A stretch of 48,107 nt of DNA, from NCBI GenBank assembly GCA_020627885.1, contig JAHDGB010000003.1, forward strand, positions 1 through 48,107. The letters are read 5' to 3'. The position numbers and the translations under genes are program-made. Origin of the DNA: Flavobacteriaceae bacterium (lineage in GTDB: Bacteria; Bacteroidota; Bacteroidia; Flavobacteriales; Flavobacteriaceae). Positions 39,187-47,457 of this stretch are shown here, in pieces (position 1 is the stretch's first letter; each line of letters starts with the position of its first letter). The notes beneath the pieces were generated by a model. The model made no database searches. It saw only the letters and a list, made by a program, of their open reading frames with translations, and was not told where the DNA came from.

Positions 39187-40005
39187 ATGGAAAAATTACC
39201 AAAAATCGGATTACCAATAATTATTGGAGTAATATTGCTCATAATATTTGTAGCCAAGTCATCTGTAAATATAGGGTATGGTGAAGCTGGTGTCTTATTT
39301 AAAACATTTAGTGGAGGTGTCGTTACAAAAGAACCAGCTTTAGGGGAAGGTTTTCATATTATTGCCCCATGGAATAAAGTATATATATATAACACAAAAC
39401 AGCAGGAAGTTTTTGAAAAGAAAATGCAAGTACTGTCTTCTAATGGTCTTGAAATTTCTTTAGATGTTTCTGTACTTTACCAACCACAATTTAATAATTT
39501 AGGATTATTACACCGAACTAAAGGAGAAAACTATTTAGATATTGTTATAGTTCCAGAAATAAGGGCTGTTGCACGTAGCGTTGTGGGACGTTATACTCCT
39601 GAGCAATTATATTCTACAAAACGAGATGCTATTCAAAACGAAATTTTTGAAGAAACTAAAAAAAAGGTAGAGCCTCAGTATATTCAGTTAAACTCAGTAT
39701 TAGTTAGAGACGTAACGCTGCCTCCAACTATTAAGCAAGCAATAGAACGAAAATTAAAACAAGAACAAGAGTCTTTAGAGTATGAATTCAGACTAGTTAC
39801 TGCTCAAAAAGAAGCAGAAAAAGTGCGTATTGAAGCTAAAGGTAAAGCCGATGCTAATAAGATATTGAGTGCTTCTTTAACAGACAAAATATTACAAGAT
39901 AAAGGTATTGAGGCAACAAGTAAATTGGCCGAATCCCCAAATAGTAAAGTCGTTATCATTGGTTCTGGTAAATCTGGAATGCCTATTATTTTAGGGAATC
40001 AATAA
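39187..40005 (+). CDS. Prohibitin family (SPFH) protein
   Basis: Single N-terminal TM; VNIGYGEAGVLFKTFSGGV; VARSVVGRYTPEQLYSTKRDAIQNEI; charged helix with EAEKVRIEAKGKADA. Confidence 0.9.
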   Translation: MEKLPKIGLPIIIGVILLIIFVAKSSVNIGYGEAGVLFKTFSGGVVTKEPALGEGFHIIAPWNKVYIYNTKQQEVFEKKMQVLSSNGLEISLDVSVLYQPQFNNLGLLHRTKGENYLDIVIVPEIRAVARSVVGRYTPEQLYSTKRDAIQNEIFEETKKKVEPQYIQLNSVLVRDVTLPPTIKQAIERKLKQEQESLEYEFRLVTAQKEAEKVRIEAKGKADANKILSASLTDKILQDKGIEATSKLAESPNSKVVIIGSGKSGMPIILGNQ

Positions 40006-40067: not shown

Positions 40068-40100
40068 TTTGGATATTTAAAAATAAATTACAGATATTTG
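40068..40100 (+). promoter_or_regulatory. Candidate promoter of the his operon
   Basis: TTTG (40068-40071) and GATATTTG (40093-40100, one mismatch to TAnnTTTG) with 21-nt spacing, just upstream of the leader ORF. Confidence 0.5.
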
Positions 40101-40117
40101 TACACTTAAAAATAAAA

Positions 40118-40177
40118 ATGAGTTTTATTCAATTACATCAGCATCATTTACATACTTGCAATCAAGCGAGGTTATGA
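40118..40177 (+). CDS. Histidine-rich his operon leader peptide MSFIQLHQHHLHTCNQARL
   Basis: ATG AGT TTT ATT CAA TTA CAT CAG CAT CAT TTA CAT ACT TGC AAT CAA GCG AGG TTA TGA; four His in six codons, upstream of a terminator and hisG. Confidence 0.85.
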   Translation: MSFIQLHQHHLHTCNQARL

Positions 40178-40208
40178 TGTATTGAATAAAATTAACATAT
40201 ATTATAAG

Positions 40209-40239
40209 ACCCGTTTGATACAATCAAGCGGGTTTTTTT
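40209..40239 (+). terminator. Attenuator terminator hairpin upstream of hisG
   Basis: ACCCGTTTGAT-aca-ATCAAGCGGGT (11 bp including one G-U) followed by a T tract. Confidence 0.9.
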
Positions 40240-40309
40240 ATTCTCGCTATATAGAAGTTAACGGAAAACTTATTTTAATCCTAATTAGTAAGGAATTAAC
40301 AATAAAAAA

Positions 40310-41167
40310 ATGAGTAAACTAAAAATTGCAATTCAGAAATCAGGACGATTAAATGAAGATTCTATGTCTCTTCTTAAAGAAGTTGGTATAGAAATTAACA
40401 ACACTAAAGACCAGTTAAAAACTTCGGGGCAAAATTTCCCAATAGAGGTGTTTTATTTGCGTAACAGTGATATTCCACAGTATTTAAGAGATGGAGTAGT
40501 AGATATCGCTATTATTGGTGAGAATATTTTAATTGAAAAGGGAAAAGATATTACTATTGCAGAATATTTAGGATTCTCTAAATGTAGGGTTTCAATTGCT
40601 GTGCCAATAACTTCTAATGCAGATAGATTGGCAGACTTGGAAAACAAACGAATAGCAACATCGTATCCTAATACAGTAAATCGGTTTCTTAAAAAAAATA
40701 GCATAAACGCAAATTTACATATTATAAATGGTTCGGTCGAAATAGCACCAAATATCGGTTTGGCAGATGGAATTTGTGATATTGTTTCTAGTGGAAGCAC
40801 ACTTTTTAAGAATAATTTAAAAGAAATAGAAATACTATTAAAATCGGAAGCTGTCTTGGCTGTTTCTCCTAAAATTTCAATCGCAAATAAAGTGCTTTTA
40901 AAAAAATTACAATTTAGGATTCAATCCGTATTAAAAGGGCAGAATTTTAAATATATATTATTGAATGCACCGAACAGTAAGTTAAAATCAATTTTAGAAA
41001 TACTTCCAGGTATAAAGAGCCCTACAGTTTTACCATTAGCGAAAATTGGATGGAGTTCTGTTCATTCGGTTATAGATAAGAATAAGTTTTGGAATGTTAT
41101 TGATGAGTTAAAAGAAAAAGGAGCCCAAGGTATATTAGTATGTCCAATCGAAAAAATGGTAGTTTAA
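40310..41167 (+). CDS. hisG: ATP phosphoribosyltransferase (long form)
   Basis: LKIAIQKSGRLNEDSMSLL, VDIAIIGENIL, GLADGICDIVSSGSTL, C-terminal regulatory region. Confidence 0.95.
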   Translation: MSKLKIAIQKSGRLNEDSMSLLKEVGIEINNTKDQLKTSGQNFPIEVFYLRNSDIPQYLRDGVVDIAIIGENILIEKGKDITIAEYLGFSKCRVSIAVPITSNADRLADLENKRIATSYPNTVNRFLKKNSINANLHIINGSVEIAPNIGLADGICDIVSSGSTLFKNNLKEIEILLKSEAVLAVSPKISIANKVLLKKLQFRIQSVLKGQNFKYILLNAPNSKLKSILEILPGIKSPTVLPLAKIGWSSVHSVIDKNKFWNVIDELKEKGAQGILVCPIEKMVV

Positions 41168-42456
41168 TGAATGTTATTATTAATCCTAAGGAAATAACTT
41201 GGAGGTCTATTTTAAAACGACCAATCCAACCTATTGAAGATATAGAAACTATAGCTTCAAAAATATTTCAAAATGTTTTTAAAGATAAAGACTTAGCAAT
41301 TAAAAAATATACTCAGCACTATGATAACGTTGCTTTAAAAACGTTGCAGGTAACTGATCAAGAAATAGATAATGCTTGTAAGGCTGTATCAAATCGTTTA
41401 AAAGAAGCAATTAAAGTTGCTAAATGTAATATTGAAATATTTCACAAAGCACAAAAATCTGAAACTGTTTTTGTAGAAACAATGGAAGGTGTAAAATGTT
41501 GGCAAGAAAAACGAGCAATAGAAAAAGTAGGGCTTTATATACCTGGAGGAACAGCTCCTTTATTTTCAACGGTTTTAATGTTGGCAATACCTGCAACAAT
41601 AGCTGGGTGCAAAGAATTGATATTATGCTCTCCTCCAAATAAAGAAGGTGAAATAACAAAAGAAATATTATATACAGCAAAATTATGCGGAATCACTAAA
41701 ATTTTTAAAGTTGGAGGTATTCAAGCTATAGCAGGATTAACTTTTGGAACAGAAACTATACCGCAAGTTCACAAAATTTTTGGACCTGGAAATCAATTTG
41801 TAACAGTTGCAAAACAGTTAGCAACGAAATATGGAGTTGCAATAGATATGCCAGCAGGACCAAGTGAGTTATTAATCTTTGCAGATGATTCTGCCAATGC
41901 AGCTTATGTTGCTTCAGACCTTTTAAGTCAAGCTGAACACGGTATCGATAGCCAAGTAATTTTAGTTTCTACATCGAAAGAAGTTATTAAAAACGTTAAA
42001 ACAGAGGTGCAAAAGCAGCTTTTACAGTTACCTAGAAAATCAATTGCAAAAGTAGCAATTGCTAATTCAAAATTAATATATGTAAACAACGATAATGTTG
42101 CCTTAAAATTAATTAATGAATATGGACCTGAACATTTTATTATCTGCTCAAAAAACGAAAAATTATACACCGATAATATTGTAAATTCTGGTTCTGTATT
42201 TATTGGGAATTATACGCCAGAAAGTGCTGGCGATTATGCCTCTGGAACGAACCATACTTTGCCAACAAATGGGTTTTCTAAAGCGTATTCTGGGTTAAAT
42301 TTAGACAGCTTTACAAAAAGTATTACGTTTCAAAAAATAACAAAACAAGGTCTTGCTAATATTGGCGAAACGATAGAATTAATGGCGGAAGCAGAAGGGC
42401 TTATAGGACATAAAAAAGCGGTGAGTATTAGGTTAAAAAATATACGGAAAAGATGA
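41167..42456 (+). CDS. hisD: Histidinol dehydrogenase
   Basis: GLYIPGGTAPLFSTVLMLAIPA, IFGPGNQFVTVAKQ, DMPAGPSELL, LSQAEHGIDSQ. Start 41167 overlaps the hisG stop. Confidence 0.95.
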   Translation: MNVIINPKEITWRSILKRPIQPIEDIETIASKIFQNVFKDKDLAIKKYTQHYDNVALKTLQVTDQEIDNACKAVSNRLKEAIKVAKCNIEIFHKAQKSETVFVETMEGVKCWQEKRAIEKVGLYIPGGTAPLFSTVLMLAIPATIAGCKELILCSPPNKEGEITKEILYTAKLCGITKIFKVGGIQAIAGLTFGTETIPQVHKIFGPGNQFVTVAKQLATKYGVAIDMPAGPSELLIFADDSANAAYVASDLLSQAEHGIDSQVILVSTSKEVIKNVKTEVQKQLLQLPRKSIAKVAIANSKLIYVNNDNVALKLINEYGPEHFIICSKNEKLYTDNIVNSGSVFIGNYTPESAGDYASGTNHTLPTNGFSKAYSGLNLDSFTKSITFQKITKQGLANIGETIELMAEAEGLIGHKKAVSIRLKNIRKR

Positions 42457-43499
42457 AAACTAATTTTAATTTAAATAATATAATACGACCGAATATCCTT
42501 TCTTTAAAATCTTATTCATCTGCTAGAGATGAGTTTAATGAAAGTGAGAATAATATGATATTTTTAGATGCGAATGAAAACCCTTTTCAAAATGGAGTAA
42601 ATCGTTATCCAGATTCTAAACAAAGAAAAGTAAAACACTTATTATCCACTATTAAAAACATTACGGCAGAAAATATCTTTTTGGGTAATGGAAGTGATGA
42701 GATTATAGATCTCATAATTAGAGCTTTCTGTGTGCCTAATCATGATAGCGCAATTGTACTACCACCAACTTATGGCATGTATGAAGTATTGTTAAACATA
42801 AATGATATAAGGGTAATTAAAATTCAGTTAAATCAATCCTTTCAACCAGATATCGATAAGGTTTTAAACGCAATAACCAGTGCCACTAAATTAGTGTTTA
42901 TTTGTTCGCCTAATAATCCTACAGCTAATAATATTAATAGTAAAAAAATAGAAAAACTATTAAAAGAATTTAGGGGGCTCGTAGTTATAGATGAGGCTTA
43001 CATTGATTTTTCAAAAAAAATGAGTTGGTTAAATCGTTTGCATGAGTTTTCAAATTTAATTATAATTCAAACACTATCGAAATCTTTTGGAATGGCTGGA
43101 GTTAGATTGGGAATATGCTATGCTTCAGTTGAAATACTATCGATTTTAAATAAAATAAAACCTCCATATAATGTTAATGAATTAACACAACAATATGTTA
43201 TTAAATGCTTATCAAAGAAAGAGCTAATTTATAAGGAAATTAAGAGTATAATAAAGGAACGGGAATTATTAATTCCTAAATTAAAAACTATAGGTTTTAT
43301 ATTAAAAATTTATCCTTCTGAAGCAAATTTTATACTTATAAAAGTTGACAATGCATGTAAACGATATGATGAATTAATAAAAAGAGGAATTGTTGTAAGA
43401 AATAGAACCTTACAAGTAATGTGTAAAAACACTTTAAGGTTAACCATAGGTACAACTATAGAAAATGAAAAACTAGTAAAGACATTAAAAAGTCTATAA
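42453..43499 (+). CDS. hisC: Histidinol-phosphate aminotransferase
   Basis: LDANENPFQNGVNRYPDSKQ, CSPNNPTANN, VIDEAYIDFS, QTLSKSFGMAGVRLG; ATGA overlap with hisD. Confidence 0.95.
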   Translation: MKTNFNLNNIIRPNILSLKSYSSARDEFNESENNMIFLDANENPFQNGVNRYPDSKQRKVKHLLSTIKNITAENIFLGNGSDEIIDLIIRAFCVPNHDSAIVLPPTYGMYEVLLNINDIRVIKIQLNQSFQPDIDKVLNAITSATKLVFICSPNNPTANNINSKKIEKLLKEFRGLVVIDEAYIDFSKKMSWLNRLHEFSNLIIIQTLSKSFGMAGVRLGICYASVEILSILNKIKPPYNVNELTQQYVIKCLSKKELIYKEIKSIIKERELLIPKLKTIGFILKIYPSEANFILIKVDNACKRYDELIKRGIVVRNRTLQVMCKNTLRLTIGTTIENEKLVKTLKSL

Positions 43500-43528
43500 A
43501 GTAACAACGAAGAACAACAATAAAAGAT

Positions 43529-44662
43529 ATGAAAAAAGTATTATTTATAGACCGTGATGGTACTATTATAAAAGAAACAGCTGATGAAAAAATTGATGCG
43601 TTTGAAAAGTTAATTTTTTATCCTAAAGTATTTCAATATTTAAGCAAAATAGCTAAAGAATTAAGTTATGAAATTGTAATGATAACCAATCAAGACGGCC
43701 TAGGGACAGTTGCATTTCCAGAGCATGCATTTTGGCCAGTACATAACTTTATAATAGAAACTTTTAAAAATGAAGATGTAGAATTTAAAGCGCAATATAT
43801 TGATGTAACTTTTGCGAAAGATAATGCGCCGACACGAAAACCAAATGTTGGATTGTTAACAAATTATTTTACTAAAGATTATGATTTAGAAAATTCATTC
43901 GTTATTGGAGATCGTTTAACAGATGTTGAATTGGCAAAAAACTTGGGGGCTAAAGGCATTTATATTAATGATCAAACAAACCTTGGTACTAATGAAATAA
44001 CTGTAAAAAGAAGTGAACTAGATAATTACATAGCATTAGAAAGTAACGATTGGGAAATAATTTATAATTTTTTAAAAAGTAAAGATAGAATAGGGAATAT
44101 CGTACGCAACACTAATGAAACTAAAATAAAAATTGTACTTAACCTTGATGGTAGTGGGCAGAGCAACATAGACACTGGTATTCCTTTTTTTGATCATATG
44201 CTCGATCAGATAGCACGTCATGGTCAAATAGATTTAAATATAAAAGTTGATGGCGACTTAAGTATCGATGAACATCATACTATAGAAGATACAGCAATAG
44301 CATTAGGAGGTGCAATAGAAAAAGCTTTAGGGAATAGATTAGGAATAGAACGCTATGGGTATTGTTTACCAATGGACGATTGCTTAGCACAAGTAGCTTT
44401 AGATTTTGGAGGACGTAGCTGGTTGGTTTGGGATGCTAATTTTAAGCGAGAAATGATAGGCGAAATGCCTACAGAAATGTTTATGCACTTTTTCAAGTCG
44501 TTTAGTGATGCTGCTAAATGTAATTTAAATATAAAAGCAGAAGGAGAGAACGAGCACCACAAAATAGAGGCCATTTTTAAAGCATTTGCAAAAACAATTA
44601 AAAGCGCTACAAGACGAGATGTAGAAAACATGATTTTGCCTTCTACTAAAGGAAAGTTGTGA
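43529..44662 (+). CDS. hisB: Bifunctional histidinol-phosphatase / imidazoleglycerol-phosphate dehydratase
   Basis: FIDRDGTIIKE (HAD) plus GIPFFDHMLDQIARHGQID, DEHHTIEDTAIALGGA. Confidence 0.95.
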   Translation: MKKVLFIDRDGTIIKETADEKIDAFEKLIFYPKVFQYLSKIAKELSYEIVMITNQDGLGTVAFPEHAFWPVHNFIIETFKNEDVEFKAQYIDVTFAKDNAPTRKPNVGLLTNYFTKDYDLENSFVIGDRLTDVELAKNLGAKGIYINDQTNLGTNEITVKRSELDNYIALESNDWEIIYNFLKSKDRIGNIVRNTNETKIKIVLNLDGSGQSNIDTGIPFFDHMLDQIARHGQIDLNIKVDGDLSIDEHHTIEDTAIALGGAIEKALGNRLGIERYGYCLPMDDCLAQVALDFGGRSWLVWDANFKREMIGEMPTEMFMHFFKSFSDAAKCNLNIKAEGENEHHKIEAIFKAFAKTIKSATRRDVENMILPSTKGKL

Positions 44663-44692
44663 AATTTTAGAATCATAAATAATTAGAAAAAT

Positions 44693-45274
44693 ATGACGTT
44701 AGTAATTATAGATTATGGAATAGGCAATACCAAAAGTGTTCAATTTGCTTTTAAACGCATAGGAAAAGAAGCTGTCTTATCATCAAATCCAAGAGAAATA
44801 GAGCAAGCAGATAGAGTTATTTTTCCTGGGGTAGGAGAAGCTAGCTCTGCAATTAAAGCATTAAAAAAAAAGAAATTAGACAAAGTTATTCCTCAATTAA
44901 AACAACCTGTTTTAGGTATTTGTTTAGGAATGCAATTGCTTTGTAATACTACCCAAGAAAATAAAACTAAAGGTTTAGGTGTTTTTAATGTAGATATAAA
45001 AAGGTTTTCTAAAAAAGTGAAAGCGCCACAAATAGGATGGAATACTATAACAAATTTAAAATCTAATTTATTTAAAGGCATAAATAGTAATTCATTTATG
45101 TATTTTGTACATAGTTATTACGCTCTAGATTGTATGGAAGCAATTGCAAATACATATTATGAATATAATTTTGCTTCAGCTTTACAGAAAGATAATTTTT
45201 ATGGTGTACAGTTTCATCCAGAAAAGAGTAGTTTAGTCGGAGAGCAAATATTGAAGAATTTTTTAACATTATAA
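44693..45274 (+). CDS. hisH: Imidazole glycerol phosphate synthase subunit HisH
   Basis: IIDYGIGNTKSVQFAF, PVLGICLGMQLL, GVQFHPEKSS. Confidence 0.95.
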   Translation: MTLVIIDYGIGNTKSVQFAFKRIGKEAVLSSNPREIEQADRVIFPGVGEASSAIKALKKKKLDKVIPQLKQPVLGICLGMQLLCNTTQENKTKGLGVFNVDIKRFSKKVKAPQIGWNTITNLKSNLFKGINSNSFMYFVHSYYALDCMEAIANTYYEYNFASALQKDNFYGVQFHPEKSSLVGEQILKNFLTL

Positions 45275-45302
45275 ACAAGCTTTTTTTTAAATAATTTGAA
45301 TT

Positions 45303-46037
45303 ATGAGAATAATACCAGCAATAGATATTATAGACGGGAAATGTGTTCGTTTATCGAAAGGGGATTATGATACAAAAAAAGTTTATAATGAAAACCCGCT
45401 AGAAGTTGCAAAACAATTTGAAGCGGCAGGGATAAAATATTTGCATTTAGTAGATCTGGATGGCGCTAAGGCAAAACATATTATAAATCATAAAGTATTA
45501 GAAAAAATAGCATCTAAAACTTCTTTAAAAATAGATTTTGGAGGAGGACTAAAAACAAATGAAGATTTACATATTGCATTTAACTCTGGAGCAAAACAAA
45601 TAACAGGAGGTAGTATAGCTGTAAATAACGTAAGAACCTTCGAAGGGTGGATTTCTAAATATGGAACGCAAAAGATAATATTAGGCGCCGATTGTAATAA
45701 TGAAAAAATAGTGATTAATGGTTGGCAAGAAGAAAGCAATGAAGAAGTCATTTCTTTTATTAAAAATTATCAAAAAAAAGGTATTCAATATGTTATATGC
45801 ACAGATGTGGCTAAAGATGGAATGTTAGAAGGGCCTTCTTTTCAGCTTTATGAAAAAATTATTAATCAATGTAGTAATAATAGTAAAGGGCAATCTATTA
45901 AACTTATAGCTTCCGGAGGTGTCTCTTCATTTTCCGATTTAGAAAAACTTGAAACATTAGGATGTGAAGGTATAATCATAGGTAAAGCTCTTTATGAAAA
46001 CAAAATTACTTTAAAGGAGTTAGATCCTTTTTTGTGA
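45303..46037 (+). CDS. hisA: ProFAR isomerase HisA
   Basis: [51 protein letters not shown]. Confidence 0.95.
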
Positions 46038-46054
46038 TTAAACGTAAAAATAAG

Positions 46055-46810
46055 ATGTTAACCAAAAGAATAATTCCATGTTTAGATATTAAAAATGGAA
46101 GAACAGTTAAAGGTGTTAATTTTAGAAACTTAATAGATGCTGGAGACCCTGTAGAATTAGCAAAACATTATGCAAAACATGGAGCAGATGAACTCGTTTT
46201 CTTAGACATTTCGGCAACTTTAGAAGGTCGAAATACAACATTAGAAATGGTTTTAAAGGTAGCAGAACAAGTAAATATACCTTTTACTGTAGGTGGGGGA
46301 GTATCATCTATAGAAAATGTTAATTGTCTTTTAAAATCTGGAGCAGACAAGATAGCTATAAACTCTTCGGCTATAAAAAATCCTTGCCTAATAAATGTGC
46401 TTTCAGAAAAATTTGGAAGTCAATGTATAACTGTTGCAATAGATGCAAAACGGATAAATAAAAAGTGGACTGTGTTTATGGCGGGGGGAACTATTCCTAC
46501 TTCTTTAAATTTGTTCGATTGGGCTAAAGAAGTTGAACAAAGAGGAGCTGGAGAAATATTGTTTACATCTATGAATAATGATGGTATAAAAACTGGTTTT
46601 GCTAATGTAGCATTAGCAAAATTGACAAAAGTTATAAACATACCAATTATTGCATCTGGTGGAGCAGGAACGGTTCAACATTTTATTGATGCTTTTAAAA
46701 TAGGGAAGTCTGATGCTGCTTTGGCTGCTAGTGTTTTTCACTTTAAAGACATTTCTATTTCAGAATTAAAAAAAGAATTAAAAAAGAATCAAATTCCTGT
46801 TCGCTTATAA
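46055..46810 (+). CDS. hisF: Imidazole glycerol phosphate synthase subunit HisF
   Basis: [47 protein letters not shown] 46055 preferred over GTG 46034. Confidence 0.95.
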
Positions 46811-46845
46811 ACCGGACCTAATTGGTGTAGTACTATTTTTAAAAA

Positions 46846-47457
46846 ATGAAAAAGATAAATTTTAATAAGAATAATGATGGATTAGTTCCTGCAATTATTC
46901 AAGATGCAAATACAAAAAATGTATTGATGCTTGGTTATATGAATGCTGAAGCTATAGAAAAAACTAAAGAAACAAAAAAAGTAGCTTTTTACAGTAGAAA
47001 GAAAAAACGTTTATGGACTAAAGGTGAAGAAAGTGGTAATGCTTTAAATTTGATTACTATAAAAGTAGATTGTGATAATGACTCCTTATTAATTACAGCG
47101 ACTCCCAATGGACCGACTTGCCATAAAGGAACAGACACTTGTTGGGCGGAAGAAAACAACTCAAACTTCGGGTTTCTTTCTAAACTTGAAAACAAAATAG
47201 AAAACAGAAAAAAGAATGTCTTAAGTGAACAATCGTATGTTGCATCATTATTTGAAAAAGGCATTAATAAAATAGCTCAAAAAGTAGGAGAGGAGGCTAT
47301 TGAAACTGTTATTGAAGCTAAAGATAATGATGACAATTTATTTTTAAATGAAAGCGCCGATTTACTCTTTCATTACTTAATATTGCTTCAGGCAAAGGGT
47401 TATAAGTTAAATGATGTTGTTAAGGTTTTAAAAGAAAGAGAAAATAAAAAATCATAA
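46846..47457 (+). CDS. hisIE: Bifunctional phosphoribosyl-AMP cyclohydrolase / phosphoribosyl-ATP pyrophosphatase
   Basis: LVPAIIQDANTKNVLMLGYMN, FYSRKKKRLWTKGEESGN, CHKGTDTCW; HisE part QKVGEEAIETVIEAKD. Confidence 0.95.
   Translation: MKKINFNKNNDGLVPAIIQDANTKNVLMLGYMNAEAIEKTKETKKVAFYSRKKKRLWTKGEESGNALNLITIKVDCDNDSLLITATPNGPTCHKGTDTCWAEENNSNFGFLSKLENKIENRKKNVLSEQSYVASLFEKGINKIAQKVGEEAIETVIEAKDNDDNLFLNESADLLFHYLILLQAKGYKLNDVVKVLKERENKKS

Follow-up and report, generated by a model that had tools for sequence, protein, structure and literature searches.

A predicted three-helix His-codon attenuator upstream of the histidine operon in Flavobacteriaceae

The window, the whole 48,107-nucleotide stretch of Flavobacteriaceae DNA analysed here, carries a complete histidine operon, hisGDCBHAF(IE), downstream of a short predicted leader gene and a terminator. 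The start of hisG at 40310, as given in the initial annotation, agrees with the match to TIGR00070. The features of the locus, with the evidence for each, are as follows.

40118 to 40177, plus strand: predicted leader peptide gene, encoding MSFIQLHQHHLHTCNQARL followed by a stop codon (sequence; His-rich orthologues in the family)
40121 to 40140, plus strand: segment A (1), early leader codons and the first His codon, pairs with C (MFE helix, covariation, own-versus-foreign pairing)
40161 to 40173, plus strand: segment B (2), last leader codons ATCAAGCGAGGTT, 5' arm of the antiterminator, copies the terminator 3' arm (fold, family pairing, class-wide own-versus-foreign pairing)
40175 to 40193, plus strand: segment C, begins at the stop codon, pairs with A or partly (40174-40185) with C' (folds, covariation)
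40192 to 40205, plus strand: segment C', 3' side of the inner antiterminator stem (fold of B to D)
40206 to 40219, plus strand: segment D (3), terminator 5' arm and alternative partner of B (pattern scan, covariation, own-versus-foreign pairing)
40223 to 40236, plus strand: segment E (4), terminator 3' arm, followed by a T run to 40240 (pattern scan, fold, covariation)
40310 to 41167, plus strand: hisG, first gene of the operon (TIGR00070, TIGR03455)
41140 to 47457, plus strand: hisD, hisC, bifunctional hisB, hisH, hisA, hisF and hisIE (NCBIfam matches in order, ORF layout)

The ORF at 40118-40177 had been annotated with 19 codons and His at codons 7, 9, 10 and 12, and its coordinates and His codons (40136-38, 40142-47 and 40151-53) proved correct. 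With His at four of 19 codons, the predicted leader is a short ORF enriched for the amino acid that the operon makes, as in attenuators. We analysed 129 hisG upstream regions of the family, comprising 18 named genomes (Winogradskyella, Tenacibaculum, Aquimarina and Flavobacteriaceae) and 111 further regions; the sample does not extend to the family's most divergent hisG genes. A strict scan found a small ORF with at least three His codons in 127 of the 129 regions, compared to 67 of 2,580 shuffled regions (2.6%), and in none of the 129 reverse strands, so that the orthologous regions bear out the His codons proposed for the window. Inspected by eye, all 129 regions contained a short His-containing leader and a terminator, the leader of locus L083 being an example with only two His. 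Most leaders follow one of two patterns, M-x-F-I-Q-x-H-H-H-(H)-F-H-x-C-x-Q-A-x and M-(R/K)-N-x-x-T-H-H-H-F-x-x-x-x-Q-A-R, each followed by the stop codon. Just 5' of the leader ATG lies an imperfect Bacteroidota-type -7 box, GATATTTG (40093-40100), which may be the promoter of the leader. We offer this as a suggestion, since an exact TAnnTTTG box was present within 60 nt of the leader in just 48 of 127 orthologues (4% in shuffles) and the box in the window is imperfect.

Between the leader and hisG, where an attenuator has its terminator, a pattern scan found one intrinsic terminator, compared to 0.2 expected in shuffles. The initial annotation had correctly recognized its presence but placed it at 40209-40239; it is slightly larger, with 14 pairs at 40206-40236, a loop of 3 and a subsequent T run, and folds with -17.3 kcal/mol (z -7.8). 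Its core in the family reads CCGTTTGA...TCAARCGG. In an alignment of 125 family sequences 99.6% of cells were paired in the terminator, and two-sided changes occurred in 5 of 11 consensus pairs (0 of 500 shuffles).

The alternative partner of the terminator 5' arm is the end of the leader. B pairs through 40161-40171 with 40208-40219, leaving a single A (40169) bulged and including a single G-U pair; the initial annotation had described this pairing with 40210-40219 as the partner. When A is out of reach, B:D and an inner stem (40174-40185 with 40192-40205) together form a long antiterminator hairpin of -17.0 kcal/mol. We claim the inner C:C' stem as an extension of the antiterminator for the window; taken alone in the family sequences, it departs only weakly from random (mean shuffle z -0.8). 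B:D was paired in 90.1% of cells of the 125 sequences and in at most 48% when slid, and own B:D pairs beat foreign pairs (z -3.8; 45 family sequences less than 78% identical). Covariation of B:D within the family was modest because its core hardly varies. Across the class, in a combined set in which 89 of 99 sequences have leader and terminator by rule, the advantage of own over foreign B:D pairs had a z of -11.1 for all sequences, -8.55 for those outside the family and -6.1 for those from other orders of the class, and B ends near the leader stop codon in most of this set. B thus lies just 5' of the stop codon and pairs with D, and modelled folds with a ribosome-sized mask switch between B:D and the terminator, as would be expected of an antiterminator. 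Compensated changes were found in two orthologues, L117 (B UUCAGGUGAG, D CCCAUCUGAA, E UCAGAUGGG) and L170 (B CUCAGGUGAG, D CCCGCCUGAG, E UCAGACGGG). One G-U pair of B:D (alignment columns 58 and 126, window positions 40166 and 40214) is kept in 119 of 125 sequences, its terminator partner being A or G, and perhaps keeps the antiterminator weaker than the terminator.

CAATCAAGCG is indeed present twice, at 40159-40168 and at 40221-40230. The initial annotation regarded this as a design reusing one duplicated sequence; however, in any 2:3 / 3:4 attenuator segments 2 and 4 are both complementary to segment 3, and the repeat is therefore the required likeness of these two segments and no special trick.

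A third helix, which like the inner stem was missed in the initial annotation, involves the early leader codons. A:C (40121-40140 with 40175-40193), with 19 pairs, is the largest helix of the unconstrained fold of the window, which consists of A:C and the terminator (total z -7.8, 0 of 200 shuffles). In the 125-sequence alignment A:C showed 159 cells with two-sided changes compared to 112 expected from shuffles; none of 500 shuffles reached its cell count or its score, and the score was also above that of all slides. Own A:C pairs beat foreign pairs with z -4.25 in the 45 family sequences less than 78% identical (range -3.5 to -4.7 across tests), and outside the family with z -4.7; in the 14-sequence order set alone the difference was not significant (z -1.1). 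A:C forms in the fold modelled without a ribosome, as a 1:2 protector helix would. RNAalifold recovered the terminator alone from the full alignment and the B:D core alone from the B to D part; as variable spacer lengths limit this method, own-versus-foreign duplex permutation and pair counts for named structures served to test A:C and B:D.

The organization is best explained as the classical 1:2 / 2:3 / 3:4 layout, with A:C as protector, (B-C):(C'-D) as antiterminator and D:E as terminator, and we consider it highly probable that the element is a ribosome-mediated attenuator in which the supply of charged tRNA-His sets transcription of the his operon. This regulatory reading is supported by the covariation of the terminator in the family and by antiterminator pairing that favours own over foreign leaders class-wide. 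The parts, their conservation, the alternative pairings and the folds of the single states are shown here, whereas ribosome stalling, the kinetic order of folding, transcription termination and a response to histidine are inferred, as follows. RNA polymerase would transcribe the leader with a ribosome following behind. When His is scarce, the ribosome would stall on the His codons and mask A, leaving B and C free, and B-C would pair with C'-D before E exists, so that no terminator forms and the operon is transcribed. When His is plentiful, the ribosome would reach the stop codon at 40175 and mask B and the start of C; D:E would then form and transcription would end near 40240. Without a ribosome, A:C would form and shut B in its loop, and the terminator would form.

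We folded the RNA in each of these states. With a ribosome-sized mask stalled at the His codons and the RNA made up to D, the fold was the antiterminator; with the mask at the stop codon it was the terminator, and without a mask it was A:C and the terminator. When the mask was moved to the fourth His codon it reached into B, and the antiterminator weakened to -11.8 kcal/mol. On the finished RNA, the inner stem and terminator (-21.6) are more stable than the antiterminator (-17.0), and readthrough would therefore need a kinetic order of folding, a dependence shared with known attenuators.

The proposal that the end of the leader competes with the terminator 3' arm in a His-codon attenuator is thus supported by orthologues and by covariation, which is clear for the terminator; for B:D, the pairing is specific to its own sequence throughout the class. 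The initial annotation, however, took the element for a two-state device simpler than the multi-stem enterobacterial leader. That B:D and D:E act as the two states alone, without a protector helix, agrees with these being the best-conserved helices, yet we judge it quite unlikely, as A:C is the largest helix of the window, covaries in the family beyond all 500 shuffles and is own-specific outside it, and an inner stem lengthens the antiterminator into a long hairpin. An even simpler reading holds that the terminator only ends the upstream gene (ORF 39187-40005), which lies on the same strand, and that the His-rich ORF is a coincidence or an ordinary small protein. Terminators between genes are common, but the element stays with hisG while sequence further upstream differs between loci, the His count is far above chance, and the B:D and A:C pairings are conserved; we regard this reading as extremely improbable.

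The conserved end of the peptide (C-x-Q-A-x), with QA nearly constant among leaders of the family, might instead suggest a nascent-chain arrest or sensing peptide acting in place of, or besides, RNA pairing. However, in four orthologues (L095, L176, L177 and L179) a TAA stop has replaced the CAA codon in B, so that the leader is shortened but B remains as RNA, and in L018 B is kept although it is read in another frame. In all five the letters persist without the QA, and since B survives in these sequences, it is B as RNA, and not the peptide, that is constrained. As leaders of other orders also have different ends, an arrest peptide is very improbable. A further role in trans for the terminated leader RNA (about 125-130 nt) or for its peptide seems quite unlikely. 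An additional partner in trans would fit the core letters of B, D and E (CTCAAGCG, CCGTTTGAG), which are nearly frozen across the family whereas the A:C helix drifts freely, but the three-way complementarity of B, D and E explains the frozen core almost as well.

We also analysed how far the attenuator extends beyond the family. Upstream of hisG, a covariance model of the family element gave matches in five further families of the order; in the genome of the window it gave no second strong match (next E 0.07). Of 40 regions upstream of hisG taken from other parts of the class, most carried a His-rich leader followed by a terminator, in elements unlike the window in sequence (e.g. with GGUAAG/CUUACC cores), and in the combined set both parts were present by rule in 89 of 99 sequences. 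Thus, a predicted leader and terminator recur in most of the hisG-bearing Bacteroidia genomes sampled, genomes with no recognizable hisG being left uncounted. In a draw from the phylum outside the class, several lineages had His-rich leaders before hisG and others had none. Some of the former (among L254, L256, L257, L258 and L259) carried another His-rich motif, e.g. one ending in HHLHQGHHHA. For the most part no terminator was detected near hisG in these leaders, and a different mechanism is therefore possible there.

The genome of the window contains further leaders. Two predicted tandem Trp-codon leader attenuators precede trpE (L231:635-868, contig C51), as follows.

635 to 688 of L231: first trp leader, MKNNNKNTYWWSLGNII, with a GTG start; terminator at 716 to 741
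755 to 814 of L231: second trp leader, MNKTIANKIWWWNFKGLNI; terminator at 841 to 865

The tandem leaders had no Rfam match, Bacteroid-trp included. A Thr/Ile-rich leader, MTVISTTTISTTLLGY, lies on the reverse strand of L233 (635-685, contig C49) about 79 nt before thrA, and a simple scan found no strong intrinsic terminator with it.

Rfam gave no match at gathering scores anywhere in the window. The His_leader model (RF00514) stayed below a gathering match and was also absent from the list at E<=5 for the window; weak matches to the trpB motif, Thr_leader, Trp_leader (18.9 bits, cutoff 41) and PyrR were all below cutoff and were treated as terminator-driven noise. Bacteroid-trp (RF01692), presumably linked to trp as its name suggests, had no match at its gathering cutoff in the window or in the trp leaders of the same genome. 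Vitreschak et al. in 2004 reportedly included Bacteroidetes/Chlorobi among predicted attenuators. The 1:2, 2:3 and 3:4 helices of the E. coli Trp leader have their counterparts in A:C, (B-C):(C'-D) and D:E, respectively. However, the trp protector pairs with the whole of segment 2, whereas the protector described here holds the 5' arm of the antiterminator within its loop and pairs with the nucleotides that directly follow that arm. The His leader of E. coli and Salmonella (RF00514) likewise combines a His-rich leader, a terminator before hisG and mutually exclusive helices, and leader translation is read there as the histidine signal (PMC1183508, PMC9413887). In contrast to its seven His codons in a row, mostly 3-6 are present here, and there are three main helices where the enteric set has an extra hairpin (PMC1183508).

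Other predicted attenuators have leaders of 3-5 His codons, likewise with alternative helices, ahead of his genes; these belong to the B. cereus group, Peptostreptococcaceae and Erysipelotrichales, in another phylum, and are presented as acquired or evolved separately (PMC9413887). The Bacteroid-trp motif is a cis-regulatory RNA from Bacteroidetes (PMC2864571), and a 2021 analysis of his genes in the superphylum mentions attenuation just in its introduction on regulation (PMC8305728). When the literature was searched for a dedicated description in Bacteroidota, a single paper came up, a transcriptome study of Flavobacterium psychrophilum. It reports clues to leader-peptide attenuation upstream of amino-acid operons, as well as a structured hisG 5' element that is conserved in other genera and has no Rfam match; the main text describes neither a leader nor helices nor covariation for this element (PMC9723704). 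The element precedes the same gene in the same family and is very probably the same element.

The mechanism is familiar, and our understanding of attenuation itself is unchanged by this element; the present analysis adds its full anatomy, including a third helix, and shows its distribution across the class together with covariation. The leader gene was missed by genome annotation and the element is matched by no Rfam model. Its segments and natural compensated variants may serve experiments on how transcription and translation are coupled in this phylum, whose promoters and start sites are unusual. Altogether, these data indicate that leader-peptide attenuation is a standard and old control of histidine synthesis in Bacteroidia.
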